64,000 bases of DNA from a bacterium (GCA_030603495.1 JAUVXR010000001.1:1-64000); one strand, 5' to 3'; shown: positions 943 through 15,407, counted from the first letter of the stretch. The notes: generated from the sequence alone by a model not told the origin. Numbers and translations: made by a program.

Positions 943-2970
943 TTAGCGCAAGGCTTCATCTACGGCGCGATGCATGGTAGAAACGTCAACCGGCTTGGTC
1001 AGAAAGCCCTTCACCCTGGCTCCGAGCCGGTCGCGGGTGCCACTATCTACGAACTCACCAGTCAGCACGACTACGGTAACATCAGGGTCAATTTCCAGTA
1101 ACTGCTCCAAACAATCCTCTCCCCCCATCTTGGGCATTACCAAATCCAGGAGAACCAAGTCAATGTCTTCGGCGTGCGTACGGAACACTTCTGTGGCCTC
1201 TTCACCGTCGTGAGCGGCAACTACTTGGCAGTCCAAAGATTCCAATATGGCACGTATGGAGCTGACTACGGCCGATTCGTCGTCCACTACCAATACAGTT
1301 ATCGGTCCGCAGTTGGCAGCAAACTCCCCCCCCTGTTTCTTTGCAAGCGGGGCACTCGGAACCGCCGGCAGATAGATGTGGAAAGTCGTCCCCTTCCCGG
1401 GCTCGCTCACGACGTCAACGAATCCGTTATGGGACTGTATGATTCCGTGGGCTACTGCTAGGCTCAGCCCGGTGTGTTCAGCACGATTCTTCGTGGTGTA
1501 ATACGGCTCAAAGACGTGAGCACGGGCTTCCTCATCCATTCCTATCCCATCGTCAGATACGGTGAGTAACACGTACGGGCCCAGCGGTATCGACAGGCCG
1601 GGATGCCTCTGGACATATTGCTCATCAACCATCAAGTTTTCCGCCTGGATCTCCAGCGTGCCGCCGCTGGGCATGGCTTCAGAAGCATTGATCGCCATAT
1701 TTAGCAGCACTTGCTCAATCTGATACGGATCGGCGTCAACGGGCCACAAATTCGCCTGCGCGCTTGACTCAACTGTAATCGTCTTGGGCAGGGTCCGGTT
1801 CAGAATAAGGTCGACTTCGCGCACCGGTTTGTCTAGGTCTGACACCTCTTTGCAGAGTTCGGTTTGTCCGCTGAAGGCCAAGAGCTGGTGTGCCAAGCTG
1901 GCCCCGCGTTCAGATGCGCCTATGATCTCTTGAAGGTCCTCGTTGGTTTTATCGCCAAAGCGTCCGCTGGCCAGCATCAGCGAGGCTCTACCTATGACGA
2001 CCTGCAGAATGCTGTTGAAATCACGTGCGACGCCACGGGCAAGGCTATCCAGTGCCGTCATCCTCTGGAACTTGTGGAGCATCTGCTCAAGTTCTTGCTG
2101 CTCGGTGATGTCCCGAGAGAGGCTGATGACGCCAGCCGTGACGCCAGCGGCGTCACGGCAGGGCGCTATAGTCGTAGAATACCAACGATATGAGCCATCG
2201 GAGCGCCTAATCCGTTTCGACTTGCCAACAATTGCCTCCCCGGTCTTCAAAACTTGTTGCTCGTCGGCATGCGTCTCTTGCGCCTCGGATTCGCTCACGA
2301 AGTCCGAGTCGGCCTTACCTACCATATCCTCGGGACTAGTCTGCCACAGCTCGGCTTTCATCTGGGAGGTGGCGAGGAATTTGCCAGTGTCGTCCTTGAA
2401 ATAGACTAGGTCGGGGAGGCTATCCAGTAAAGCCTGCAAAAGCGCAGCCTGCCGCTCAGCCTCTTGTTCCGTGGCACGCTGCTCAGTAACGTCTTGACCG
2501 ATACCAAGAAAGCCCGTGGGTTTGCCGTCTTCCTCAGCAAGCTGGGTGCCACACCAATGTATTTCCCGCTCAGTGCCATCTTTGCACAGGCACGACCATA
2601 CTATTGACCCGGTTTGGGGCCCTGCAAATATGGTAGCAAAACACTCTTGGCTCCCACTGTGCAAGCGCCTAAGACGCTTTGGGATTAGGAGTTGGGAGAA
2701 CGGCTCGCCCAATGCCTCCGCCTTGGAATACCCGGTTATTTCCTCACAGTGCCGATTGAATAAGGTAATGAGGCCGCGGGCATCCGTTGCTACCAAGAGC
2801 ACGGACGCATCCTGCATAATTATATTGGCCAAGGTTTCTCGAACGCGGACCCGACTGGCCTCCAGCGCTATCTCCCCAAGTATAATACGGTTCCTGACCA
2901 GCATCATTAGAATTCCTAATACACCCATCACCGTCATGCAAATCAGAAGATAAGCACTCATTACAATCAT
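943..2970 (-). CDS. Membrane hybrid sensor kinase lacking the H-box histidine
   Basis: 675-aa hybrid kinase. An N-terminal membrane helix (about residues 3-25) is followed by two PAS domains (about 45-170 and 175-295), a dimerisation helix, an HATPase domain (NMAINASEAM, DDGIGMDEE, GLSLAVAHG) and a C-terminal receiver with its acceptor Asp in LLDLVMP and a Lys in FLTKP. In the H-box the expected GxAHDFN reads GVARDFN: codon CGT at 2023-2025 gives Arg316. As written it cannot autophosphorylate in the ordinary way. The start overlaps the upstream kinase stop (ATGA). It is the last gene of the fibre operon. It may serve as a receiver/phosphatase partner of the intact kinase or be decaying; the rest of the frame is clean. 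Confidence 0.9.
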   Translation of the reverse strand: MIVMSAYLLICMTVMGVLGILMMLVRNRIILGEIALEASRVRVRETLANIIMQDASVLLVATDARGLITLFNRHCEEITGYSKAEALGEPFSQLLIPKRLRRLHSGSQECFATIFAGPQTGSIVWSCLCKDGTEREIHWCGTQLAEEDGKPTGFLGIGQDVTEQRATEQEAERQAALLQALLDSLPDLVYFKDDTGKFLATSQMKAELWQTSPEDMVGKADSDFVSESEAQETHADEQQVLKTGEAIVGKSKRIRRSDGSYRWYSTTIAPCRDAAGVTAGVISLSRDITEQQELEQMLHKFQRMTALDSLARGVARDFNSILQVVIGRASLMLASGRFGDKTNEDLQEIIGASERGASLAHQLLAFSGQTELCKEVSDLDKPVREVDLILNRTLPKTITVESSAQANLWPVDADPYQIEQVLLNMAINASEAMPSGGTLEIQAENLMVDEQYVQRHPGLSIPLGPYVLLTVSDDGIGMDEEARAHVFEPYYTTKNRAEHTGLSLAVAHGIIQSHNGFVDVVSEPGKGTTFHIYLPAVPSAPLAKKQGGEFAANCGPITVLVVDDESAVVSSIRAILESLDCQVVAAHDGEEATEVFRTHAEDIDLVLLDLVMPKMGGEDCLEQLLEIDPDVTVVVLTGEFVDSGTRDRLGARVKGFLTKPVDVSTMHRAVDEALR

Positions 2971-5246
2971 CCCTTTCTTGCCAACGACAGCTCAAGCTCC
3001 GCCTCATCATGCGCTTCTGCCTTCTCTCTCGGAAGCCTGCAATGATACTTACTTGCCGTCACCTTCGCCAGTCCCTCCCGCAGTACTTCCAGTGTCACGG
3101 GCTTACTCAGAACGAGGTCCACGCTGCGGGGCTTTTCATCGTTTGTCGTCGTTAGACCACCGAATCCTGTCATCATGATGATGGGCATATCAGGAGCTAT
3201 CTCCTTGACAGCTAGTGCTAGTCGGTCGCCGGACATTTCGGGCATGGCCCGGTCCACTATCACTACGTCGAAGCTCTCCATACAGAACTTGTCAAGTCCT
3301 TCAAGGCCGTTAGTCGCCATCTCGATGCTATGCCCGTCATCGATGAGGTATTGGGCCAGGGCTTCAAGCACAAGTGGTTCGTTGTCGACCAGGAGAACAC
3401 GTAGTGAGGATGAGGGGCCCTCTCGCACCGGCTTGGAGTCTATTCTCGTTTGTGCCATTCCGACAGGCAAGTGGATGCGTATAGTCGTGCCCTTGCCAGG
3501 TTCGCTCTCAATATCAAGCGTTCCGCCGTGCCGCTGAATGCTCCCGTAAACCAACGCTAAACCCATACCCGTGCCTTTCTTCTGTTTGGTGGAGAAGAAC
3601 GGTTCTAGGCAACGCTTGGCTACTTTTAGGATCATGCCTACGCCCGTGTCGCTCACCTCAACGACTACGGTGTCATCATGAACCCGACTGCGAAAGGTTA
3701 TCGTCCCACCGTCAGGCATTGCATCGACTGCGTTCATTATCAAGTTGATAAACACTTGGCGCAGCTCGGACTCGCTTGCAGCGACGAGGGGAACCGCTTT
3801 CAGGTCCCTATCGATGCTGATACTGATGTCGCTCGCGGAGGCTTGCTCTTGCCACATGGGCTGCGTGATCGCGAGGCACTCCTCTATGAGTTCATTAAGG
3901 TCCACAGCTTGCATTTGGTCCTTTTCGTCGCGTGGCCGATAGAACTCGCGCAGGCGTTTGACCACTTCCGCGGCATCTTTTGCGCCATTGTATATCTTTT
4001 TGAGGTGCTCGGTCACTTTCTCCCTATCATTCAAACTGTCCGGTCGCACAAGCAGCGTCTCACTGAACGCCATGATCGGCGTTAAAATGTTGTTGAAGTC
4101 GTGCGCAATGCCGCTTGCCATCTGGCCCAGTGCGTGGAGACGCTCCTGCCCGATCACTTGCTGCCGCGTTTCGTGCAGTTCGGCGAGTGCCTGGCTCAGT
4201 TGAATGTTGGTCTCTTTAAGGGCTTCCTCGGCCTGCTTGCGCTCGGTGATGTCATGGATAACGCCCATTCCACCGACGATTCTTCCCTGCGTATCGAACA
4301 CTGGGAAGTGCGAACTGTCGAAGTATCCGCTCCTGCCTGTTTGTGCGATAATAAAAGGTATCTCTGACAGCGTGGCTGGCTCGCCCTTCAACGCTTGCCT
4401 GATGGCATCACCCTCCCCCACTTCGTCGATGAAGAGGAAGAGCTCGAAGCACGTTCGTCCCAGTACCTCCCTGGCGGGGCAACCTGATATCCTTTCCAAC
4501 GCCGGATTACACAGCGTAATGTTGCCCTGTAAATCATAGGCCATGATACCAGCCTGGCTTGACATGACCAGTGAGGTAAATAGCTCGTGACTCTCCTGCA
4601 GTGCCTCCTTGGCCCGCTTGTGCTCGGTGATGTCGGTGTAATGTTCAATACGACCACCCGCATACAAGCCTGATCGGATGGGCTGGCTCCAGTGATCAAG
4701 CCAACGATCTTGGCGCTCTCCGTCAGGAAGCACATGACATTCGAAGTTCTCAATATAGGTATTGTTTTCATACGTCGAAAGGACTTTCTTAGCAAAACCT
4801 TCCGGATCCTCAAAGATGTTCTTGATGCTTTGGCGAATGAGCTGTCGCTTATCCTTCCCTATAACCCGGCCCCTTTGTAAGCTGAAGTAGCGCTCCATGG
4901 CCCGATTTACCCAGACAACTATGAAGTTAGAATCCAGGATGAGGAGGCCGACCGCTGAGGTATCGAGCACATCGTTGGTCAAGGAGCGATATTGCTCCTC
5001 GCTCTCCCCCAGGGCCTTCTGCGCTCGATCGCGCTCAATTAACGCTAAGCATATAATCAGGCCAAATATAAGCAGAAGACCTATCGCCAAGAATCCCAGG
5101 TAGAGCTGGTGGGGGGCCACGTCAAGAATCAACAACTCCCCAAACCGCCATTCGTTGAAACTGAAGTAGTGGCCAATTGCGTAAACCATCCCGGCCAACA
5201 GCAGTGGAATAAGGGAAAAGCACATCGCTTTGTATTTAGTTTTCAC
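2967..5246 (-). CDS. Membrane hybrid sensor histidine kinase, intact
   Basis: 759 aa with two transmembrane helices (about 5-28 and 48-70) enclosing a short extracytoplasmic loop. Two PAS domains follow (about 90-210 and 215-335), then HisKA with the phospho-accepting His382 in GIAHDFNNIL, HATPase (NLIMNAVDAM, DTGVGM, GTGMGLALVYG) and a receiver with Asp in VIVDRAMPEMSG and Lys in VLSKPV. It starts with GTG overlapping the TGA of the barrel gene (GTGA), so it is translationally coupled to the fibre secretion genes. It likely senses fibre assembly or envelope state. The output is probably its own receiver, that of the neighbouring degenerate kinase, or the LytTR regulator at 10560-11357. Confidence 0.92.
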   Translation of the reverse strand: MKTKYKAMCFSLIPLLLAGMVYAIGHYFSFNEWRFGELLILDVAPHQLYLGFLAIGLLLIFGLIICLALIERDRAQKALGESEEQYRSLTNDVLDTSAVGLLILDSNFIVVWVNRAMERYFSLQRGRVIGKDKRQLIRQSIKNIFEDPEGFAKKVLSTYENNTYIENFECHVLPDGERQDRWLDHWSQPIRSGLYAGGRIEHYTDITEHKRAKEALQESHELFTSLVMSSQAGIMAYDLQGNITLCNPALERISGCPAREVLGRTCFELFLFIDEVGEGDAIRQALKGEPATLSEIPFIIAQTGRSGYFDSSHFPVFDTQGRIVGGMGVIHDITERKQAEEALKETNIQLSQALAELHETRQQVIGQERLHALGQMASGIAHDFNNILTPIMAFSETLLVRPDSLNDREKVTEHLKKIYNGAKDAAEVVKRLREFYRPRDEKDQMQAVDLNELIEECLAITQPMWQEQASASDISISIDRDLKAVPLVAASESELRQVFINLIMNAVDAMPDGGTITFRSRVHDDTVVVEVSDTGVGMILKVAKRCLEPFFSTKQKKGTGMGLALVYGSIQRHGGTLDIESEPGKGTTIRIHLPVGMAQTRIDSKPVREGPSSSLRVLLVDNEPLVLEALAQYLIDDGHSIEMATNGLEGLDKFCMESFDVVIVDRAMPEMSGDRLALAVKEIAPDMPIIMMTGFGGLTTTNDEKPRSVDLVLSKPVTLEVLREGLAKVTASKYHCRLPREKAEAHDEAELELSLARKG

Positions 5247-8161
5247 AAGGTCACCTTCTGGCTATCCTGAATCATCCGGATACGTCTCAAACGGGGCAAG
5301 ATCTTGATAGAAACCTCTTTGGCTTCTGCGGGCCTCAATTCCAAGTCTATCTCAGACTTTTCCAGATAATGGTAGGCAGGTAAGTTGTGGTCATATATCT
5401 TCAGACGCCACTCCCCAGGGCGCAAACTCTCAAAGAAGAATTCACCACTATAGTTTGTGATCGTGCGCAGGACCTCGTCACCATTAGCGAGCTCGACAAG
5501 AATGTTTCCCAGACCCCAAGGTTCCCGCGAGTTCTGGCCACTTCCGGTACGGCCATTCCCATTCCCATTTCCGTTGCCACTGCCATTCGAGCTTCGCGGG
5601 TCACCGACGACGTAGACAGCCTGGCCGTCATGCACTGTGTGCCCATTCCCGTTGCCATTGCCGTTCACGGGGAGTACCATTACTGTTCCTGAGACGCGGG
5701 CAGCCTCAATGACGCTAATGTCAAGCTCTGTTATCTGGCCGCCTATTATTTCCACCAGAATTGGCAGTTTGTGCTCTGTGACCCGATTCAGACCGATAGA
5801 CTTTCTGTCCACGTATACTGAGTAAGCCCCCGCGGTAAGGCAGGGGAAAACGAAATAGCCTTGGTCGTCGGTGACGGCTGTTGCGCCAGTGGTGGTGAGG
5901 ATTGCCCGCGCAATACCTGCACTGTCCGGCGCGTCGGCATCGAAAACTCTGCCTCGGATGACACCGACATTCTTCTTTTTTCTGACAGGTAGGCTCAGGG
6001 GGATGGGGATGGTATATGTGAATGCGTAGGTGGTGTCGTTGTTCCTGCTTAACTCATGCCTATAATGCCGGATCTGGAAATCCAAGCTGTGACCGTTGCG
6101 CAGGGCATAACGGGTGCGGAAGCTAAACTGATCGGTTGCTGGTCGGTCACGGGCATCGAAGTTGTACTTCACATACCACAGACTCATCTCCAGATCGTCG
6201 CTTGGCTTCCACATTGTTGAAGCTCCCAGGTTATTGCTTCCACCCAGTAGCCGGCTTCCTCTGAGAGCATCATCTTTACCAAATCCTCCGTAAAGAGTGA
6301 GCAAGAAGTCCCGCGTCGGCCTATACGTGGTAAAGACATTGAAGTGGTCGACCCGTCCACTTCCACCGCCGATGAGGTCCCTTTGTTTACCCCCACGCGC
6401 CTCAACACGAAAACTAGACCTGCCCGTTGACCGTCCTACCGACAGCCGCAACGCGTCCTCTTCGTAGTCGTAGTCCGCGGGTGCCAGCCGGTCGCGACGG
6501 CGGAAATCGTCATAATCAAGCGAAAGATACCACTTAGACGGCAAGCTATACCTGAGGCTCAATTGCAACAGGTTTTCCTTGGGGGCCGTTGTCGCATCGC
6601 CCCGCAAGGCTAGATTCTTTTTCCAGCGGCTGTAAGATGCGCGGCCCTGGAGACGGCCTCCGAGCGGGAAGCTCACTGACCCCCTGGTATAATCGGCATC
6701 GTGATAGTAGCCGTAGTAATCGGGCCCCGCGTGCGTTTTGCTGAAGGAGTAATAAGTCTTCCGCCCTGCCTGGCCGTTCAACCCGACGCGATAGGCATCG
6801 TCACGCACGCCCCCGCTCCGATTGCTGTCGCTCCTGCCGTATTCCACCTCAAGTTTCATCTTATCAGAGGGTTGGAACTCGCCCTCCACACTCCACACGG
6901 AATCATGGACAGCAGGCGTGTCGCCGTACGAGTCGTACTCCTTCCGCAACAGATTGAATTTCGTCCTTAGCCTGTCGTTGATGCGGTGGCCGACATAGGC
7001 GCCAAACTGTTTCCTGTCCGGCCGGCTCCAGCGGCTGCGGAGGTAGCATGTCCCCAACTTAACACTGTCGTCGGGAGGATGAAAACTGACTCCCAGCCCC
7101 CGACCGTAAGCAAAATAAGAAGTCAATCGGGAAAGCACAAAGCTCTGATCGCCCAGGCGCACGTCGTAGTCGGTAGTGGCATAATTCAGCCAGTATTCGT
7201 CCCGCTTTCCGAAAATGCCCTTGCCCTGAGTATCGAAGGGCCGCAAGAGAAACTTTATCGCCTTGGTTCCCTCTTCGTCCAAAGTCCCCGCGCCGCGCAG
7301 CTCGGCCTGAACCCCATGCGCACCGTCCCTTCCGTGCACATCAATAGTAAGCGTGGCTGGTAGCCGGTGGTACATATCCGGCTCCCTGGTTACCGTGGGG
7401 ATAATGTCAACGCTTACCGCAAGCGCTGCACTTGGCCGCCCGTCGGCCAGCTCCTGGGCCTCTGCCCTTATCCGTATCGTATGCTTGCGCAGCCGCTGCT
7501 CATTCGGATCCGTCTGGACAGTCACACTGACGACTTTGTTGGCGCCGGCGGCCAGGGTAGTCTCGGCAGGCTCTATGGTCGCCGGATAGTTCTCCCTGCT
7601 CGTGACTTCCAGTTTTACTTCAAGCGTGGCGTTGCCCTGGTTAATTACCCACAACTTAACCTGATACTCATCACCCGCAATTACAGTGTCAGGCTTGTGC
7701 GCGAGCAAGAGAGCCAATTCCCCCACCGGTAGCACCGCGATAGCTACTGTGTCGGCATCCTGGATCGCATAATCTCGTTGGCTGCGGACAGAATAGGTGA
7801 CATCATAGCGCTGTGCCAACGCGCTGATAGGGACCCTGAGAGCTACTATGCGGGTGGTGGCCTCGGAGGGGCGCAGCGTAAAGCTGCTGGTGGGGATAAT
7901 GGACTGCCAATCCGGCGGGAGTTTCACAGCCTCGATGAATTCTTCCTCGCGGTCCGTCTCGTTGGTGACCAGGAAACTGAGGCTGACGATGTGGCCCGGG
8001 GCCATGTCCTGCAGGGAGGGCGACACGGCGCGCACTTCTATGCCATTGCCCTTGCCTTGCGCTAGGGCCGTCGCTGCGCAGAGCAGCAGAGCAAGAGCGA
8101 CTAGCGCAACTTTATTCAATCTCCAGGTGATGCCATGTCCCAAAGACATATTCATCTCCAT
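5243..8161 (-). CDS. Usher-like outer-membrane barrel with Ig-like ends
   Basis: 972 aa. A signal peptide (VALVALALLLCAATALAQ) precedes two Ig-like NEW3/CARDB-type repeats (about 40-260). Then comes a long segment of alternating hydrophobic and aromatic strands (about 270-720), such as YGYYHDADYTRGSVSFPLGG and WYLSLDYDDFRRR, typical of a large beta-barrel. A carboxypeptidase-regulatory-like domain (about 733-830), a Gly-Asn linker (NGNGNGNGH, then GNGNGNGNGR) and a final Ig-like domain follow. The architecture parallels a chaperone-usher pore (barrel plus folded periplasmic ends), and the chaperone gene directly upstream supports that. I see no clear PapC/FimD sequence signature. The start lies inside the chaperone gene; a start nearer 8110 is possible. 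Confidence 0.8.
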   Translation of the reverse strand: MEMNMSLGHGITWRLNKVALVALALLLCAATALAQGKGNGIEVRAVSPSLQDMAPGHIVSLSFLVTNETDREEEFIEAVKLPPDWQSIIPTSSFTLRPSEATTRIVALRVPISALAQRYDVTYSVRSQRDYAIQDADTVAIAVLPVGELALLLAHKPDTVIAGDEYQVKLWVINQGNATLEVKLEVTSRENYPATIEPAETTLAAGANKVVSVTVQTDPNEQRLRKHTIRIRAEAQELADGRPSAALAVSVDIIPTVTREPDMYHRLPATLTIDVHGRDGAHGVQAELRGAGTLDEEGTKAIKFLLRPFDTQGKGIFGKRDEYWLNYATTDYDVRLGDQSFVLSRLTSYFAYGRGLGVSFHPPDDSVKLGTCYLRSRWSRPDRKQFGAYVGHRINDRLRTKFNLLRKEYDSYGDTPAVHDSVWSVEGEFQPSDKMKLEVEYGRSDSNRSGGVRDDAYRVGLNGQAGRKTYYSFSKTHAGPDYYGYYHDADYTRGSVSFPLGGRLQGRASYSRWKKNLALRGDATTAPKENLLQLSLRYSLPSKWYLSLDYDDFRRRDRLAPADYDYEEDALRLSVGRSTGRSSFRVEARGGKQRDLIGGGSGRVDHFNVFTTYRPTRDFLLTLYGGFGKDDALRGSRLLGGSNNLGASTMWKPSDDLEMSLWYVKYNFDARDRPATDQFSFRTRYALRNGHSLDFQIRHYRHELSRNNDTTYAFTYTIPIPLSLPVRKKKNVGVIRGRVFDADAPDSAGIARAILTTTGATAVTDDQGYFVFPCLTAGAYSVYVDRKSIGLNRVTEHKLPILVEIIGGQITELDISVIEAARVSGTVMVLPVNGNGNGNGHTVHDGQAVYVVGDPRSSNGSGNGNGNGNGRTGSGQNSREPWGLGNILVELANGDEVLRTITNYSGEFFFESLRPGEWRLKIYDHNLPAYHYLEKSEIDLELRPAEAKEVSIKILPRLRRIRMIQDSQKVTL

Positions 8162-8939
8162 TGTCTGCTACGATGAGGGCCTTGTAGTTGCCGGCGGGCA
8201 GCAGAGACAAGTCTATCTTGCAGCGGGTGGAGCAGCCAGGGTAGATACGCCGCCGCTCTCCATCAAAACGCCCCAGGGTCATCCCTTGTTCGTCAAAAAT
8301 CTCCGCCCACACCAACGGCCGCAGCCATTGCTCGCCGGTGTTTTCCATGTCTAGCTGCAAGACGCGCTTGCCGTCGTTGACAACGAGCTGTATGTCGGCG
8401 AAATTCATGTCCGTCTCGCCCGCGTAGCCAGGGTTCGATGAGAAGATGTGCGTCACCATCTGAATTCCGTAGCGTATGACCGTGCGGATCCTGACTTTGA
8501 TCTTGCCTTCTTCTTCGGGCGGTTCCAGACTCTCCTCGGTCAGCGGCTCAACCATGAGCATACTCCAGTATGTGCCAGCCAACTCCTGGTCCGCTGGAGA
8601 CCGGAACGCGTAGTAGATAGAAGCTGTCCCCTTCGGGGGAACGATGAGCTGCCTCGGCGACAAATTGATCCACGACGCGTTAGAGCGCGCCACACTACCG
8701 GGGTCGAGGTACATCTTTTTGCCTCCGGCATAAAACAGGCAGTCCTTCTGATAGCATCTGACGGTCTGGGGCTTCTCGGAGCGGTTACGGAGTAGAATTT
8801 GACCTTCGGCACTCTCGCCCGGCTGCAGGGTAGCCTCACGCGTCAAGGACCCGACGACAACAATACCCGCCGCTGAAGCCACACTTGCCGCTGTTATCAA
8901 GAGGCAAGAGTAAAGTGTTAACGTTCTGAGAGCTTTCAT
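8112..8939 (-). CDS. Periplasmic chaperone-like protein of the fibre operon
   Basis: 275 aa with a signal peptide (SCLLITAASVASAAG). The mature N-terminus resembles the first Ig domain of pilus chaperones: GESAEGQILLRNRSEKPQTV, then LSPRQLIVPPKGTASIYYAF, the region that in that family carries the subunit-binding strand and the basic anchor. A second beta-rich half follows. Predicted role: capture subunits in the periplasm and deliver them to the barrel at 5243-8161. The start overlaps the stop of the upstream subunit gene (ATGA). Assignment rests on fold-like pattern and position, not on a family signature. Confidence 0.65.
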   Translation of the reverse strand: MKALRTLTLYSCLLITAASVASAAGIVVVGSLTREATLQPGESAEGQILLRNRSEKPQTVRCYQKDCLFYAGGKKMYLDPGSVARSNASWINLSPRQLIVPPKGTASIYYAFRSPADQELAGTYWSMLMVEPLTEESLEPPEEEGKIKVRIRTVIRYGIQMVTHIFSSNPGYAGETDMNFADIQLVVNDGKRVLQLDMENTGEQWLRPLVWAEIFDEQGMTLGRFDGERRRIYPGCSTRCKIDLSLLPAGNYKALIVADNGDEYVFGTWHHLEIE

Positions 8940-9427
8940 TCGATATCCACCACCGTGTAAATAATAGTAGTCGCATAATTGTCCGCGAACATCTGCGCCG
9001 AAACCCCGCTCAACTTCTCTTGAATGTAAATGGTGGTTCTGTTGCCCGAACCGGAGAAGAACACCGTATCACTAGTGGTGACTTGTTGGTAAGTCGTCCC
9101 ATCACTAATGGCTCCATCACCATTCCCGTCGTTTGTCCTCGCCACCCACAATACGAGGTCCTCATGCCATGTGGTGTCGCTTCTTTTCACATCCACGCGC
9201 CAGTTATCATCGCTGCCGCTTGTGCCGGTGATGTCAATTACGACTTCGTCGGCGTCGCTTGTGTAGATGCTGTTCAGGTCACTTCCAGGCCCCGCCTCTA
9301 AATCGGCTTCGTCTACGGTCTCGGCCCAGGCCCCGGTCACCGTAATGTTTATGGCGCCTGCGGGCACACATGTCACCAAGGCAAACAGGGCAGCGAGCGC
9401 TATGCTTGGCCAAACTCCTCGTCTCAT
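8936..9427 (-). CDS. Secreted minor fibre subunit (predicted)
   Basis: 163 aa with a signal peptide (IALAALFALVTCVPAGA) and a small all-beta mature domain beginning INITVTGAWAETV and ending YATTIIYTVVDIE. The alternating C-terminal strand (TTIIYTVVDI) is the kind donated between subunits in chaperone-usher fibres. GGGGAGG upstream gives a ribosome site. It follows the major subunit after a strong intercistronic hairpin, suggesting lower expression. Function is inferred from size, secretion and position. Confidence 0.6.
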   Translation of the reverse strand: MRRGVWPSIALAALFALVTCVPAGAINITVTGAWAETVDEADLEAGPGSDLNSIYTSDADEVVIDITGTSGSDDNWRVDVKRSDTTWHEDLVLWVARTNDGNGDGAISDGTTYQQVTTSDTVFFSGSGNRTTIYIQEKLSGVSAQMFADNYATTIIYTVVDIE

Positions 9428-9458
9428 CTCATTGGGCCTCCCCTTTTGCTTGGGATAA

Positions 9459-9490
9459 GAGGTGGTAGGGTATCACAATCCTACCACCTC
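9459..9490 (-). promoter_or_regulatory. Intercistronic hairpin after the major subunit gene
   Basis: A perfect 11-bp stem (GAGGTGGTAGG / CCTACCACCTC) with a 10-nt loop lies in the 92-nt gap between the two subunit genes. On the minus strand it is followed by TTATCCC, not a T-run, so it is a poor intrinsic terminator. It is more likely an mRNA-stabilising or partial-termination element. Such hairpins commonly raise the level of the major pilin over downstream assembly genes. Confidence 0.7.
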
Positions 9491-9519
9491 CCGTACTTCC
9501 TGATTCAGTTCCTACTACG

Positions 9520-10083
9520 CTACGCCGCGTCTGTGAGAGTTAGCGTCACCGTAGCATCTGTTGCCCCCTGCACCACCACATCTGCCAATGTAGTGATCGA
9601 AAGGGTCCAGGTCAGAGTGGCGCCGGGAGACCCCGAATGGCCCGACCCGATGCCGGTAATGATGGAATCCACGGAGCTTGCGGCGCTAGTCAAATCTATG
9701 CCGTCCGCTACGAGGTCACCATCGTCACCGCCGTGACTGGCTCCCAAAGCAGTTGCTTCGACGTTGAGCGTAAGGCCGGCAGGAATAGCATTCAGCAGTA
9801 CTGACACATCTACGGACCGCGTCTCCGCAGCCCCCACCGTCGAGGTGTACTCGACACTGGTGGTCTCTGCCGCACTGACAACGGGACTGAGCCCAGAGCC
9901 TTCAGCAGGCGCACTAATGGTGAAGTCCGCAGTCCCCGTCGTGCCCACGTCAATTATCTCACTTATTGTTATGCCCACGAGCTGATCATCGGTATCCGGG
10001 GCCGCCATCGCGGCTGACCCCATCAGCGCCAGCAGGGCACCTACGAACAGAAACGTCATGGTCTTTTTCAGTGTCTTTTTCAT
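9520..10083 (-). CDS. Secreted major fibre subunit (predicted)
   Basis: 187 aa. The signal peptide (MTFLFVGALLALMGSAAMAA) is followed by a Thr/Ser/Ala/Gly-rich all-beta domain with no cysteines, opening with LVGITISEIIDVGTTGTADF and closing with the strand DATVTLTLTDAA. The pattern resembles spore-coat-protein-U or DUF4402-like fibre subunits. A strong ribosome site (AAAGGAG, 9 nt before ATG) and first position in the operon fit a highly made structural protein. Partner genes downstream encode a second subunit, a chaperone and a barrel. Confidence 0.65.
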   Translation of the reverse strand: MKKTLKKTMTFLFVGALLALMGSAAMAAPDTDDQLVGITISEIIDVGTTGTADFTISAPAEGSGLSPVVSAAETTSVEYTSTVGAAETRSVDVSVLLNAIPAGLTLNVEATALGASHGGDDGDLVADGIDLTSAASSVDSIITGIGSGHSGSPGATLTWTLSITTLADVVVQGATDATVTLTLTDAA

Positions 10084-10105
10084 CTCTTGTACTCTCCTTT
10101 GTGTT

Positions 10106-10120
10106 CGGGTATAATACCCG
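10106..10120 (-). promoter_or_regulatory. Palindromic element close to the subunit gene
   Basis: CGGGTATAATACCCG is a 7+1+7 palindrome 22 nt upstream of the major subunit ATG. It contains TATAAT/TATTAT, so it can be read as a -10 box or an operator. No convincing -35 box is spaced 16-18 bp from it. Confidence 0.35.
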
Positions 10121-10405
10121 TTGGTGTTTGGAGCGTCCGCCGCGTCGCCTCAAGGCCACGCTATTGGCAGATCGACTCCTTCGCTACTCATCGCCGCGAG
10201 CTCTGTTAGCAGAGATGCTTTGCGGCGATGTACTTCTTGTGTCGGCCTCGGGAAGGCCTGAGCTCGACATTGTGCCCCGGGCCACCTCCTTTCAGAGCGT
10301 GTATTGTCAAGGTAGGGCCAAACAGCACCGCCTCTCGGTTCGTTGGACAGCACTATGACCCACGTGGGACCAAACCTATTACAACCCTGTACTGTCACAA
10401 TCGCT

Positions 10406-10478
10406 ATCATACCCAAAAAACGTCGACAAATGGGGTGACTACCTCTCGGTGGTGTATTTCCTCTGCGAATGGTGTAAA
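10406..10478 (-). promoter_or_regulatory. Candidate LytTR operator plus -10 box
   Basis: Three similar 9-mers stand at 10431 (TGGGGTGAC), 10450 (TGGTGTATT) and 10470 (TGGTGTAAA), spaced 19 and 20 bp. LytTR regulators bind pairs of imperfect 9-10-bp direct repeats about two helical turns apart. On the minus strand a TATGAT (10406-10411) lies 19 bp downstream of the nearest repeat with no good -35, the arrangement of an activator-dependent promoter. The regulator gene ends 80 bp upstream and the fibre operon starts about 320 bp downstream. Confidence 0.45.
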
Positions 10479-10559
10479 TCCACTTTCTAGGGGGGCTTGA
10501 CGGGTGGAACAAGGGGGATTGTGGGCGGCTGAGTTAGTATCTACGCCCGTGCAGTATCC

Positions 10560-11357
10560 TCAAATGCCCAACAAGGTGAACAGCTGCTTCGCCCGGGAAC
10601 GAGAGACGGTGAGGTCATTAAACATCATGCCGGCGCTGCCGTCCTTGAGGATAACGTCGTAGGAGCCGTCCCCTACGGGAATCAGATGCTCAACATATTT
10701 GAGGTTGATAAGCACACCGCGGTTAATGCGCTTGAACCCCTGGGAAGTGAGACGCTGTTCAAGCCGCTTGATGGTGTAATAAGTTGGGAAGGCCTTTTCC
10801 GCCGTGTGCAGCACAGTCCGCCCGCCCTCTCGCGCGGCATAGATAATCAGGGAAGAGTCAATCAGCCGAACTGTGGCCTCCTCGTAGTCCTTAATGGGAA
10901 GCATGTACAAGGGTGCGGACGGCTGTAGTCCGACGAGTTGCGCGACCATTTCACGCAGCACCTCAAGTGCAGGCGCTTTCTCGTCTAGTGCCCGTTCGAT
11001 GCGCTCGATAGTGGCCGCAATGCGGTCCTGTAGCACTTCGAGTTTGTCCGATTTGACCACATAATCAAGTGTGGCCAATTCGAACGCCTTTACTGCGTAT
11101 TCGTCGTGGGCCGTGACAAAGACAATCAGCGGTGGGTGGTCCAATGTAACTACAATCTCTGCGACCTCAATGCCACTTATGTCTGGCATCTGGACGTCGA
11201 GGAACAGTACGTCCGGTGTCGTTTTCTCCACTAGCTCCAAACAATCCGTGCCATTGAATGCTTGGCCGACCACTTCGACTTTGCCGGTGGCTTCTAGCAG
11301 ATCCTTGATTATTGTGGCCCACATCGGCTGGTCATCTACAACTACCGCGCGTATCAT
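10560..11357 (-). CDS. LytTR-family response regulator
   Basis: 265 aa from the start MIRAVVVDDQPMW. An in-frame ATG 54 nt further upstream adds 18 residues that do not belong to the fold. The receiver (1-120) has the acid pocket VVVDDQ, acceptor Asp in LFLDVQMPDISG and Lys in YVVKSD. The C-terminal LytTR DNA-binding domain (about 160-265) contains YYTIKRLEQRL, FKRINRGVLINLKYVEHL and a basic end. LytTR proteins typically control surface and secreted factors. This gene sits head-to-tail above the fibre operon with a matching operator-like repeat between them. Confidence 0.92.
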   Translation of the reverse strand: MIRAVVVDDQPMWATIIKDLLEATGKVEVVGQAFNGTDCLELVEKTTPDVLFLDVQMPDISGIEVAEIVVTLDHPPLIVFVTAHDEYAVKAFELATLDYVVKSDKLEVLQDRIAATIERIERALDEKAPALEVLREMVAQLVGLQPSAPLYMLPIKDYEEATVRLIDSSLIIYAAREGGRTVLHTAEKAFPTYYTIKRLEQRLTSQGFKRINRGVLINLKYVEHLIPVGDGSYDVILKDGSAGMMFNDLTVSRSRAKQLFTLLGI

Positions 11358-11609
11358 ATAGCCATCAACCCACAGCGCAGGGTAGTATCTGGGACAACTC
11401 CTGCAGAGCATTGCGCTCTTGGGTAGGGCAGTTCATGTAGCAATGCGTCGAATATAGACAGGGCGCAGCTAGCGACAGTTCTCCGTGCAGGCTGCGCGAT
11501 ACTATCATCCTAACGGGGTATTTCATCCGACTTAGGAACAACCCACTGCACAGATAACTACCCCCGTCTGCTGGCGCCCGCCAAGTCTGTTTGCCGGAGA
11601 TGTAAGTCA

Positions 11610-12088: not shown

Positions 12089-13243
12089 TTATATAGTCGT
12101 TTGAGATCGAATTTGGTTGGGTTCTTCTTCGGGGGATTTCTTGAGGTGAATGGCCGCGGCCTCGCCGGCTGGCTCCCCTTCGTTTTCGTTGCTGTAGGCG
12201 AGAAAGTCAGGCAAAGCCTCAGCCGCAGCCTGCTTGGTGGCTCCATCCGAGTGCAGGTAGCGTGAAGTCGTGCTCAGGTCAGCGTGGCCCAGCAGTTCCT
12301 GGACTGTTTTCACATCCACTGCCGAGTGGAGCAGCATTGTGGCGTAGGCGTGACGCAGACTATGGGCCGTGATGCCGGCTCGGTCAAGCCCGGCTCTCTT
12401 CACAATGCGCTTGAAGATTCGATAGAACGTCGAGTTGCCCATGCGCTTGGCGCACCTATTAGGGAAGAGAAGCTCTGAGGTTGACTCTCGCCCGGCCAGG
12501 TATTGCTTGAGTATTTGCCGGGTCTGTCCCGGCAGAGGAATTACCCGTTCCTTGCCGCCTTTGCCCATAATCCGAATGCGGCTCAAATCGGCTGTCAGGT
12601 CAGAGATGCGCAGATTCAGGAGCTCAGAGCGGCGCAAACCCGCAGTGAGCAGCAGCATGATTATCGTACGGTCGCGAATGTCGCCAGCAGCTTGGACCAA
12701 CCGTCGGCCTTGCTCTGAGGTGGGGCCCTGGGGCAAACTGCGCGTCTGTTTGGGCTTCACCACACCCTCCACTGGGTTAGACTCCACCAGGCCGCTGCGC
12801 CTCAAGTAGCTAAAGAACGAGCTCGTAGCATTCAGTGCCCGCGTAATTGTGGCTGCTGATAGTCCACTCATCGAGACGGCAAAGGCCTGTAGCTCGCGGC
12901 TGCTAATCTGGCGAACGTCCGTTGTTAGGTTATGAGACACCAGGAAGTCGTGCAGCCGCCTCAGATCCCGGCCATAGGCTTGCAGGGTAAGCGGAGAAGC
13001 TTGGCGGTACTGCTCAAGATAGGTCAGAAAAGAATCCACCAAGTACTGGAAGTCGTAGATTCCCTGTTCGTTGTCAGCGACAACGGCCGCTCCCGGTTGG
13101 CAACCGAGGCCTATTGTCGTTGCCTCGTTTTGATGTTCAGGCACAATGCTTCTCACATGTCTATCCCTAACTGGTGTCCGGGGGACCGCCAGAACATGAC
13201 GTCCGCCACCATCTATATGCGGTTGCCTACAGGCCAGACTCAT
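12089..13243 (-). CDS. Tyrosine recombinase ending the 12-21 kb operon
   Basis: 384 aa. SAM-like N-terminal core-binding domain (LVDSFLTYLEQYRQASPLTL) and a catalytic domain with all key residues: Arg in AGLRRSELL, Lys in GKGGKER, HSLRHAYAT, His in LGHADLSTTSRY and the Tyr nucleophile in SRYLH. About 60 N-terminal residues look non-conserved; a GTG at 13156 with AGGGA upstream is a likelier start. A polar C-terminal tail follows the Tyr. It is the distal gene after the HerA-nuclease gene (37-nt gap), so it may mobilise the whole operon. Confidence 0.9.
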   Translation of the reverse strand: MSLACRQPHIDGGGRHVLAVPRTPVRDRHVRSIVPEHQNEATTIGLGCQPGAAVVADNEQGIYDFQYLVDSFLTYLEQYRQASPLTLQAYGRDLRRLHDFLVSHNLTTDVRQISSRELQAFAVSMSGLSAATITRALNATSSFFSYLRRSGLVESNPVEGVVKPKQTRSLPQGPTSEQGRRLVQAAGDIRDRTIIMLLLTAGLRRSELLNLRISDLTADLSRIRIMGKGGKERVIPLPGQTRQILKQYLAGRESTSELLFPNRCAKRMGNSTFYRIFKRIVKRAGLDRAGITAHSLRHAYATMLLHSAVDVKTVQELLGHADLSTTSRYLHSDGATKQAAAEALPDFLAYSNENEGEPAGEAAAIHLKKSPEEEPNQIRSQTTI

Positions 13244-13280
13244 TGTGCGGTTTCACTATCACCTTTGGTGTCTTGGGTAT

Positions 13281-15407
13281 CTAAAGATCTAGCGACGGCT
13301 GACTATCGGACACTCCGGCAGCGTCGTTACTGGGATCTTCCAAGAACTCCCGCAACCGGCGCCACTCGATTCTCTGAGAGATATCCTCACCCAACTCCTG
13401 AATTACCGCCTCTTTGATCCGGTCGAGATCCTTTTGTGCGTGTGCTGCCACAATTACCTGGTCATAACCCATGCCCAGGTCGGCCTCGATATTGGCCACC
13501 TCGAATTGGGGCTTCTCAGCCGTACCTAGTGCTATTTCCACAGCCAGCTTCTGTCCATTGGCATACACTGCAACGTCAACGGCCTTGTTGCCCAGAGTTT
13601 GGTCTTCGAGGCGAATCTCGCTGCGGGGGTAGCGGGCCCTATAGTACTGCGAAACTGCCCTCTGGAAATACCGATGGGGAAGCCCGCCTTTGCCTCGAGG
13701 GCGGTCTACCTTTACGCGCAGCACCGACGTCAAGTGTTCCCAACCTTCCGCAGTAGGCTGGTATAGAACGATTGCCCTGCCGCGGCGACCGGTATTGACC
13801 TCACAACGTTCAATAAGGCCAGCCTCTTCCAAGCGGGTGCGGATCTGGTTACCCATATAGCCGCTGTAGTCGAGGCGCTCGTCCCGCTGGGTTACCGTCT
13901 CAAATGGATGGCGGGCAATCTCTACCAGGTATTCGGTAGCACGCAACGGCAGTGCCGATTGCGTGGCCTGGTCGCCCTGCTGGGTAGCAGTCTGCTGAGC
14001 GCCGCTTTGTTCAGTGGTCTCGACGACCGGCGGGACGATTGCAGGTGGCTCACTTCGCGGCACATAATCCAGTTGCGCCAAGGACTGCTCGCGGCGCTCC
14101 GCGACCTGCTCTGGAGTTGGTTCGGGAAAATTCAGCTCAGGGAAGCGTACCAGGAAAGCACGGGGGTATGTTCCGCCCATAAACTGGATCGCGTGGCGGT
14201 CGGGAATCTCGCTCAGCCAGTCTTCCTGCTCCTGATTAAGCGAACAGCTGCGAGCGAAGATGCGCTTGGAATTGCCTTCGTCCAGGCGAAAACAGGTCTT
14301 ATAGCGAGTGTTGGCCAGAATCTGCGCCGGGGTCTCCCCCGGCACTTGGTCGGTAAATATCAGCCGGATATCACGCTTCCGCACCCGTCGCGATGCCTGT
14401 AGCAGCCAGGGCTCGGTTATATCGCTTCTTGGGTCCCACGAAGAGTAGAGCAGATGGGCCTCATCAATGATGATGTTGAGGCGGTCGCCCGGGTGCAAAG
14501 ATTTGAAAGTGATAGCTGCGGTGAGGAACGTATCGACAAAGAAAAGCAACTGTTGGTCGCTGAGGCCCCGCAGCCGCAACACCAGTGATCTGTTGGTCAG
14601 CTGTCCCAGGTCAAAGCCTCTGACGCAGTCATAGACCGGACCCATCAGTCGCTGTAGGGCAGCCAGCCGATTCAGCGCGCTCTCTCTATAATTGTACCGC
14701 CGGCTGAACGGCTTGTAGCGAATCCGCTGTAATGCTGCCAACACATCAGTAAGGGTAGGATAGTTGAGGCTGCCGCCAAATACTCCGTGACTGTCAAACA
14801 GGTCCCAGAGCACCTCACCCAGCAGATTCTCAATGCCCTCGCGAAAGAAAAACGCCTCGCGGGTGACATTGTGAAAGCGGTAGATGGCCGACCGCGGGTG
14901 CTCTCCCTGAACGGGGGCGAAGGGGTTCCACTTGAAGTCCTCATAATCGATTACGAGAAACTCATCCGCAGGAAACTGTAGCGCTACGTCGTCGTGCTCG
15001 TTCTCGAGGTCCAGAAAAAATACAGTCTGGCCAGCGGCGTGCAGCTGCGTAGCTAGATGCTTTATGCCATAGCTTTTCCCCACCCCTGGTGTTCCCACCA
15101 CTAGAGCGTTCCAGTCTTCGTCCGGAGGCAGCGGGCAGGGAAAGCCCACCCCCGCACCGGTGGGCACCCAGGTCCAGGGCATGCCGGCAGCTGGCAGATC
15201 TTCGGGCAGCGGCTGGTCAACCATGAAGGGGTGCGGTTCGTCGACATTGAGAGCGGCTTGCACGGTCAAGGCATGAGCAAGTGAGTTGATCATTCCTTCG
15301 TCCCCAGACAGATTTGCCGCCGCCACCGCAACTTGGGCTCCGGGATGACTGCGCAGCCCGGATAGGGCTAATAGATCGTTAAGCACAGAATCTTCGCTAA
15401 GCTCCAT
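13281..15407 (-). CDS. HerA/VirB4-like ATPase fused to winged helix and nuclease-like domain
   Basis: 708 aa. Walker A GTPGVGKS (105-112) and Walker B LNIIIDEAH (about 315) define a HerA/FtsK-type P-loop ATPase (DUF87-like), with an Arg-rich sensor region (ASRRVRKRDIRLIF). A winged-helix segment (about 480-570) and a C-terminal PD-(D/E)xK-like fold follow: NKAVDVAVYANGQKLAVEIAL. The catalytic Lys position is Ala, so nuclease activity is doubtful. SD AAGGAG precedes ATG. A similar three-part protein lies at 31546-33585. Likely role: DNA pumping or processing for the mobile element or a defence function. Confidence 0.85.
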   Translation of the reverse strand: MELSEDSVLNDLLALSGLRSHPGAQVAVAAANLSGDEGMINSLAHALTVQAALNVDEPHPFMVDQPLPEDLPAAGMPWTWVPTGAGVGFPCPLPPDEDWNALVVGTPGVGKSYGIKHLATQLHAAGQTVFFLDLENEHDDVALQFPADEFLVIDYEDFKWNPFAPVQGEHPRSAIYRFHNVTREAFFFREGIENLLGEVLWDLFDSHGVFGGSLNYPTLTDVLAALQRIRYKPFSRRYNYRESALNRLAALQRLMGPVYDCVRGFDLGQLTNRSLVLRLRGLSDQQLLFFVDTFLTAAITFKSLHPGDRLNIIIDEAHLLYSSWDPRSDITEPWLLQASRRVRKRDIRLIFTDQVPGETPAQILANTRYKTCFRLDEGNSKRIFARSCSLNQEQEDWLSEIPDRHAIQFMGGTYPRAFLVRFPELNFPEPTPEQVAERREQSLAQLDYVPRSEPPAIVPPVVETTEQSGAQQTATQQGDQATQSALPLRATEYLVEIARHPFETVTQRDERLDYSGYMGNQIRTRLEEAGLIERCEVNTGRRGRAIVLYQPTAEGWEHLTSVLRVKVDRPRGKGGLPHRYFQRAVSQYYRARYPRSEIRLEDQTLGNKAVDVAVYANGQKLAVEIALGTAEKPQFEVANIEADLGMGYDQVIVAAHAQKDLDRIKEAVIQELGEDISQRIEWRRLREFLEDPSNDAAGVSDSQPSLDL

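Follow-up and report, generated by a model that had tools for sequence, protein, structure and literature searches.

The minus-strand locus at positions 943–11411 of the 64,000-nucleotide bacterial DNA stretch GCA_030603495.1 JAUVXR010000001.1:1-64000—the whole of which we call the window—contains a core of four genes that probably works like a chaperone–usher system, building a surface fibre. The core encodes two types of small secreted subunits (SUB1 and SUB2), a chaperone predicted to consist of two immunoglobulin (Ig) domains, and a large outer-membrane barrel protein whose predicted fold is usher-like. Few bacterial surface structures have been studied as thoroughly as chaperone–usher pili; no description of the present system was found in the literature searched, subscription journals and preprints being outside its coverage. 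Seven open reading frames (ORFs) make up the locus, in the transcription order LytTR regulator, SUB1, SUB2, chaperone, barrel protein, and hybrid kinases HK1 and HK2:

10560–11411, minus strand: LytTR-type response regulator, 283 amino acids (aa); Pfam Response_reg (E 3.6e-21) and LytTR PF04397 (E 1.8e-16)
9520–10083, minus strand: SUB1, repeated-type subunit, 187 aa; signal peptide, N-terminal extension, and beta core ending in TVTLTLTD
9955–9999, minus strand: predicted donor-strand extension of SUB1, residues ~29–43, PDTDDQLVGITIS..., from its alternating-hydrophobic pattern
8936–9427, minus strand: SUB2, single-copy subunit without the extension, 163 aa; signal peptide, family alignment
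8112–8939, minus strand: chaperone, 275 aa; signal peptide and two Ig domains, no C-terminal membrane helix
5243–8161, minus strand: usher-like outer-membrane barrel protein, 972 aa, called from the AlphaFold2 (AF2) model, Foldseek and gene context
7400–8056, minus strand: two N-terminal Ig-like (NEW3-type) domains of the barrel protein, residues ~36–254; Pfam NPCBM_assoc/Ig_VWA7, AF2 strands 41–254
6005–7372, minus strand: transmembrane barrel of the same protein, residues ~264–719; AF2, 26 strands by DSSP
5279–5968, minus strand: two C-terminal beta-sandwich domains of the same protein, residues ~732–961; CarboxypepD_reg-like and SdrD_B/SpaA-like (Pfam)
2967–5246, minus strand: HK1, hybrid PAS histidine kinase with receiver domain, 759 aa; HATPase_c (E 2.5e-24) and Response_reg (Pfam)
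943–2970, minus strand: HK2, hybrid PAS histidine kinase with receiver, CckA/VirA-like, 675 aa; Pfam, NCBIfam

The order of the core is conserved well beyond the window. With a chaperone alignment constructed from relatives, 101 places encoding such a protein were located in named genomes; the best 80 served for the counts, and their neighbourhoods were scanned by iterated hidden-Markov-model searches. In those 80 loci the order around the chaperone was constant, with SUB2, chaperone and barrel following one or, in many loci, several (up to seven) genes of the SUB1 type, while the genes flanking the core varied. The barrel gene lay directly downstream of the chaperone in 77/80 loci and a subunit-type gene of either family upstream in 71 of the 74 with enough room, SUB2 itself being detected there in 46 of those 74. 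The chaperone tree covers 19 phylum groups, with some phyla scattered over it. The whole seven-gene order was found again in a genome of the same genus (G006, locus L025), at 76–92% identity except for SUB1, with 41%. The arrangement is thus more than chance, the seven genes recurring in G006 and the core in some 80 loci. The core is SUB1(n)–SUB2–chaperone–barrel; the LytTR, HK1 and HK2 genes are accessory and lineage-specific, because, among the loci examined, G006 alone has their orthologues next to it.

In the phylum of the window's own genome, whose closest named relatives are Armatimonadetes metagenome-assembled genomes, a chaperone match was found in 30/291 genomes, nine of these matches being strong. 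The classical usher family PF00577 was detected in 2/291 genomes at E 0.001, one above the cut-off and none in the window's order; and in the window's genome neither PF00577 nor PF13953, the usher families, matched anywhere. Among the carriers of the core are the cultured Chromatiaceae Thiocapsa marina and Thiococcus pfennigii along with Orenia metallireducens of the Bacillota, so that the system can be tested.

The AF2 model of the chaperone, obtained with 67 homologues, predicts two Ig domains with good confidence (mean predicted local-distance difference test [pLDDT] 93.9). The closest solved structure by both aligners was the Enterococcus faecium WxLIP 9i25, solved in complex with WxL (Foldseek E 5.6e-15; VIA-align Z 17.1 over 232 residues, with a root-mean-square deviation of 6.2), followed in VIA-align by CfaA (Z 13.0), FimC (12.6) and CsuC (12.3), and then by Caf1M and PapD, the range for the chaperone–usher chaperones being Z 10–13. 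The sequence profiles point in the same direction: in hhalign the chaperone matched ten WxLIPs of lactic acid bacteria with probability 92 and score 55 over 233 columns, in comparison to scores of at most 25 for 20 column-shuffled profiles; without signal peptides the probability was 81 and the score 44 (reversed control, 18); and the family matched WxLIP in hmmsearch at E 9e-4, while Pfam WxLIP_PGBD directly matched just 3/67 of its members. Against nine E. coli K-12 chaperones of the chaperone–usher type, signal peptides likewise removed, hhalign gave no match (probability 2); and Pfam PapD_C matched 1/67 chaperone homologues, at E 0.003, the window protein not being among them. By sequence profile, then, the chaperone is akin to WxLIP and not to the E. 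coli chaperones. Neither it nor SUB1 or SUB2 matched a Pfam family or was hit by a naming model in NCBIfam. A membrane helix forms the C-terminus of WxLIP (PMC10599100); the chaperone model has none and ends at the last Ig beta strand. Residues 149–161, a strand following a long loop of domain 1, display alternating hydrophobics and contain Arg156 and Gln160 in 67/67 members, and the preceding strand reads GTYWSMxMVE. As a separate matter, the Klebsiella pneumoniae plasmid record CP069367.1 contains at 101782–102283, where no feature is annotated, a 92.6% match to an EfmWxLIP1 fragment, which sequence is perhaps a contamination or misassembly of Enterococcus DNA.

The ends of the barrel protein proved to be as the preliminary description of the locus had read them, NEW3-like and regulatory-like, Pfam finding the NEW3-like PF10633 at residues 55–126 (E 3.8e-6), CarboxypepD_reg PF13620 at 735–790 (E 4.2e-11) and SdrD_B at 876–922; the description was also right in seeing no obvious PapC/FimD signature, as no usher family appeared among the Pfam matches at E up to 1. 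The AF2 model, from 53 sequences, had a mean pLDDT of 87.5 and a predicted TM-score of 0.64. By DSSP there were 26 strands between residues 269 and 719, an usher having 24, and the beta-sandwich domains that follow (732–829 and 886–961) are joined by a predicted disordered Gly/Asn-rich linker with pLDDT <50 at 858–878. In Foldseek, ranks 1–8 were all FimD (E 4e-14 to 3e-12), with the BtuB/TonB-type barrels at about 1e-7; and in VIA-align (Z 17.6) model residues 266–955 aligned to FimD 137–833, the alignment thus extending into the C-terminal domains. No insertion of at least 35 residues was present inside the barrel in the window protein or in 52 aligned homologues—two longer proteins, from loci L041 and L085, lay outside that alignment—and therefore there is no plug domain. 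A 24-strand barrel, possibly with a plug, had been suggested for modelling; the model gave 26 strands by DSSP, the ushers FimD and PapC as best Foldseek matches, a tie with OprD-type barrels in VIA-align, and no plug. A plain porin barrel, or a chaperone without a two-Ig fold, had been named as results that would have spoken against the proposal; what we found was FimD as the best Foldseek match and two Ig domains in the chaperone model.

Certain observations nevertheless weigh against the assignment of the barrel as an usher. The plug that the model lacks is a standard usher part. In VIA-align the Z of 17.6 for FimD and that of 16.6 for the OprD-type porins amount to a tie, so that this aligner alone fails to single out the ushers; it is Foldseek, together with the C-terminal domains and the gene context, that discriminates. 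The Foldseek TM-scores to FimD were low (TMq ~0.27, TMt ~0.4), perhaps owing to the domain arrangement; and the profile match to six K-12 ushers was weak and suggestive only (hhalign probability 49, score 48; reversed control, 30).

SUB1 and SUB2 are homologous (hhalign probability 94) and differ at the N-terminus. With the signal-peptide ends placed by a simple rule, the mature proteins have medians of ~21 (SUB1) and ~9 (SUB2) residues before an anchor column shared by both families, which makes the SUB1 extension ~12 residues longer. That extension reads TQTVTFEVxAI and follows the pattern V-x-F/Y/V/I-x-V, with three alternate positions hydrophobic in 30/30 sequences and mostly polar residues between. 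It was through such an alternation that the donor strand of CsuA/B was identified (PMC4654587). An extension restricted to SUB1 fits, as expected from the sequence pattern, a donor-strand polymerisation with SUB2 as the tip or starter. SUB1 is, moreover, the least conserved gene between the window and G006 (41%), as would be expected of an exposed major subunit. In loci L035 and L023 seven tandem SUB1-type genes lie upstream of a single SUB2, chaperone and barrel, a multiplicity that suggests subunit diversification. SUB1 and SUB2 did not qualify as E. coli-type pilins, there being no significant profile match to those of K-12. A search of six genomes with the archaic-pilin family SCPU gave no match even in its controls and thus carries no weight.

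Donor-strand complementation followed by exchange is the most likely mechanism because of three features taken together: the SUB1 extension, the chaperone strand 149–161, and the prediction that WxLIP completes its WxL partner by means of an inserted strand (PMC10599100). SUB1 and SUB2 would enter the periplasm through their signal peptides and be held there, each of them, by the two-Ig chaperone, which would probably lend the domain-1 strand ~149–161 to complete the beta sandwich of the subunit. At the outer membrane the barrel protein would receive the chaperone–subunit complexes and hand them over by means of its NEW3-type Ig and C-terminal beta-sandwich domains; each incoming SUB1 would use its N-terminal strand to displace the chaperone strand in the preceding subunit; and the subunit chain would exit through the barrel, with SUB2, lacking the extension, starting the fibre as its tip. 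The LytTR regulator and the two hybrid kinases would constitute a lineage-specific control layer.

When compared with the known chaperone–usher systems (FimC–FimD, CfaA, CsuC–CsuA/B; that is, the classical, alternative and archaic types), the locus shares the subunit–chaperone–usher gene set, the two-Ig chaperone, a large barrel with paired C-terminal beta domains, and, as judged from the sequence pattern, subunits with an alternating-hydrophobic N-terminal extension plus one type without. It differs from them in that the proteins of the locus match no usher family (PF00577, PF13954, PF13953), PapD-type chaperone family (PF00345, PF02753) or pilin family in Pfam, the barrel has, by DSSP count, 26 instead of 24 strands and no plug, NEW3-type Ig domains stand in place of PapC_N, and the chaperone is nearer to WxLIP. 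The end domains of the barrel also occur in other NEW3/CarboxypepD_reg outer-membrane proteins, but are generic domains that do not define a function. With WxLIP (DUF916–DUF3324; EfmWxLIP1, PDB 9i25 and 9i1y), which belongs to the WxL clusters of Gram-positive bacteria, the chaperone has in common two tandem Ig domains, a full-length profile homology and a gene directly after that of a small beta-protein; both have also been suggested to complete the beta sandwich of a partner. Nevertheless, the present chaperone is soluble and barrel-paired, whereas WxLIP terminates in a membrane helix and is encoded in a cluster that has no outer-membrane barrel; and the partner subunits here are not detectably WxL by profile. 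The designation as an alternative chaperone–usher pathway is well supported with respect to the chaperone–usher type, the chaperone having two predicted Ig domains and the barrel matching FimD best in Foldseek; but "Alternative" in the sense of Nuccio and Bäumler, which is the Ecp/CFA-I clade, would be the wrong label for a system whose chaperone is, by sequence profile, kin to WxLIP.

That the system constitutes a separate chaperone–usher-type superfamily, present in at least 19 phyla and with chaperones homologous to the Gram-positive WxLIP, is a possibility that we advance tentatively and at somewhat less than even chances, because the likeness in fold to the chaperone–usher chaperones could still mean a single superfamily. 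Consideration must thus be given to a true but divergent member of the known superfamily, within the Nuccio and Bäumler clades and beneath sequence detection, which reading concerns origin and is compatible with the mechanism proposed above. The folds of both chaperone and barrel match chaperone–usher proteins, and the weak barrel–usher profile signal would accord with such a descent; but the probability of 2 for the nine K-12 chaperones versus 81 for WxLIP, together with the lack of a Pfam usher match and of a plug and the different N-terminal domains, makes this origin rather unlikely. If the separate lineage were real, the Gram-positive WxL complex and the outer-membrane system would share one ancestor, the barrel having been lost from one of the two lineages or never acquired by it; and the barrel, lacking a plug, would open by some mechanism for which FimD and PapC offer no precedent. 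A plugless usher poses a concrete question about gating. Through a chaperone linking WxL/WxLIP to a chaperone–usher-like machine, both the meaning of WxLIP and the question of how donor-strand fibre assembly arose would become directly testable. Phyla in which classical ushers are scarce or absent are, furthermore, among those that carry the system, and tools based on the Pfam usher and PapD families miss it entirely.

If, alternatively, the locus encoded a WxL-type surface platform, the chaperone-like protein would stay bound and hold small beta-sandwich proteins in the envelope, the barrel acting as an anchor or as an exporter of single proteins. In accord with this possibility, WxLIP is the only significant sequence or profile relative of the chaperone, a subunit gene directly precedes the chaperone as a small WxL gene precedes WxLIP, and the C-terminal strand motifs resemble those of WxL. 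The membrane helix of WxLIP (PMC10599100) is, however, missing here, as suits a soluble carrier; the SUB1 extension and the multiple SUB1 genes fit a polymerisation; and SUB1 and SUB2 could not be accepted as WxL domains, since hhalign of the mature proteins gave a probability of <4, the C-terminal strand alone looking alike. The WxL domain PF13731, for its part, had no match in the window's genome. On this evidence we regard a platform as improbable, and the building of a fibre by a chaperone–usher mechanism as the better account.

As to the control of the locus, Pfam substantiated the LytTR regulator and the two PAS hybrid kinases that the preliminary description had recognised. Its overlapping codons were found from SUB2 through HK2 and not at SUB1: as read from the sequence, the SUB2 stop and chaperone start form an ATGA overlap, the chaperone and barrel ORFs overlap by 50 nucleotides, and the barrel/HK1 and HK1/HK2 junctions are GTGA and ATGA overlaps, respectively; but a gap of 92 bp separates SUB1 from SUB2, and the LytTR gene lies 476 bp upstream of SUB1. 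An ATG at 11357, 18 codons inside the regulator ORF, is an equally possible start for that protein. Promoter and terminator signals did not rise above shuffled controls. A dedicated control layer in this lineage is plausible; that the kinases sense the state of assembly and feed back on expression via LytTR, as had been proposed, is a guess to which we assign a low probability, even lower than that of a platform, and that claim we do not retain. The translational overlap of barrel and HK1, kept in G006, would speak for such a feedback. Opposed to it, high-scoring relatives of HK1, HK2 and LytTR adjoin the core in G006/L025 only, with generic lower-scoring kinases within 10 kb elsewhere; related kinase and receiver genes are many in the window's genome, where 28 places match HK1, itself counted; and no LytTR-type sites or binding repeats were found with the pattern tried. 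In addition, HK2 has a single N-terminal hydrophobic stretch and HK1 two, only some 30 residues apart; with, as judged by eye, little or no periplasmic part, the sensing domains are the cytoplasmic PAS.

Six of the weaker chaperone matches from the window's own phylum, those that were inspected, constitute a second, more distant branch, which we term type II (loci L155–L160; e.g., L159:7007–9758 and L157:4892–8025). There a WxLIP-like chaperone of ~280 aa is followed by a barrel protein of 650–945 aa, the next gene fitting the barrel profile in 6/6 loci (E 1e-20 to 5e-28), and small secreted proteins adjoin the pair in most of the six. By profile comparison the type II chaperone matched WxLIP with probability 95 and the window's chaperone family with 99.8. 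The Pfam matches of the type II barrels are all C-terminal (CarboxypepD_reg, SdrD_B/SpaA), and Pfam found no NEW3 domain in them. The subunits end in AGxHxLxxxWKVES (C-termini ...W-K-V/I-E), resembling the WxL C-terminal strand YxxTLTWxL; by profile the likeness covers 22 columns only, with probability 6, and may be taken as a lead, not as a result.

The least credible of the alternatives, a barrel that were an ordinary porin or nutrient receptor lying by chance beside an operon of Ig proteins, would find an argument in the near equality of OprD-type barrels and FimD in VIA-align, but is rejected on account of the pairing with the chaperone, conserved in 77/80 loci from about 19 phyla and again in 6/6 of the divergent type II loci, and of the Ig-like domains at both barrel ends, the ushers also leading the Foldseek ranking with E-values lower by several powers of ten.

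A few loci deviated from the general arrangement. L090 and L100, from Chlorobi and both of >20 kb, contain a chaperone-family gene, but no barrel or subunit gene could be recognised beside it, so that either the partners are divergent or the fold has been put to another use. A barrel relative without the N-terminal part (L019:16402–18192), with no chaperone found in its 19-kb contig, is possibly a decaying or cut copy; its genome, G004, of the same genus as that of the window, also holds the type II locus L159. A search of the barrel against viral contigs gave no match. Upstream of the locus, at 12089–15407 of the window, a XerC-like tyrosine recombinase (PHROG integrase match) and a HerA/VirB4-like ATPase might represent an integrated element, which is not conserved beside the fibre locus in G006. 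A fim-like phase switch operated by this neighbouring XerC-type recombinase was considered and rejected, the inverted repeats near SUB1 and LytTR being only weak and long-spaced, and the XerC-like genes of G006 being located elsewhere.

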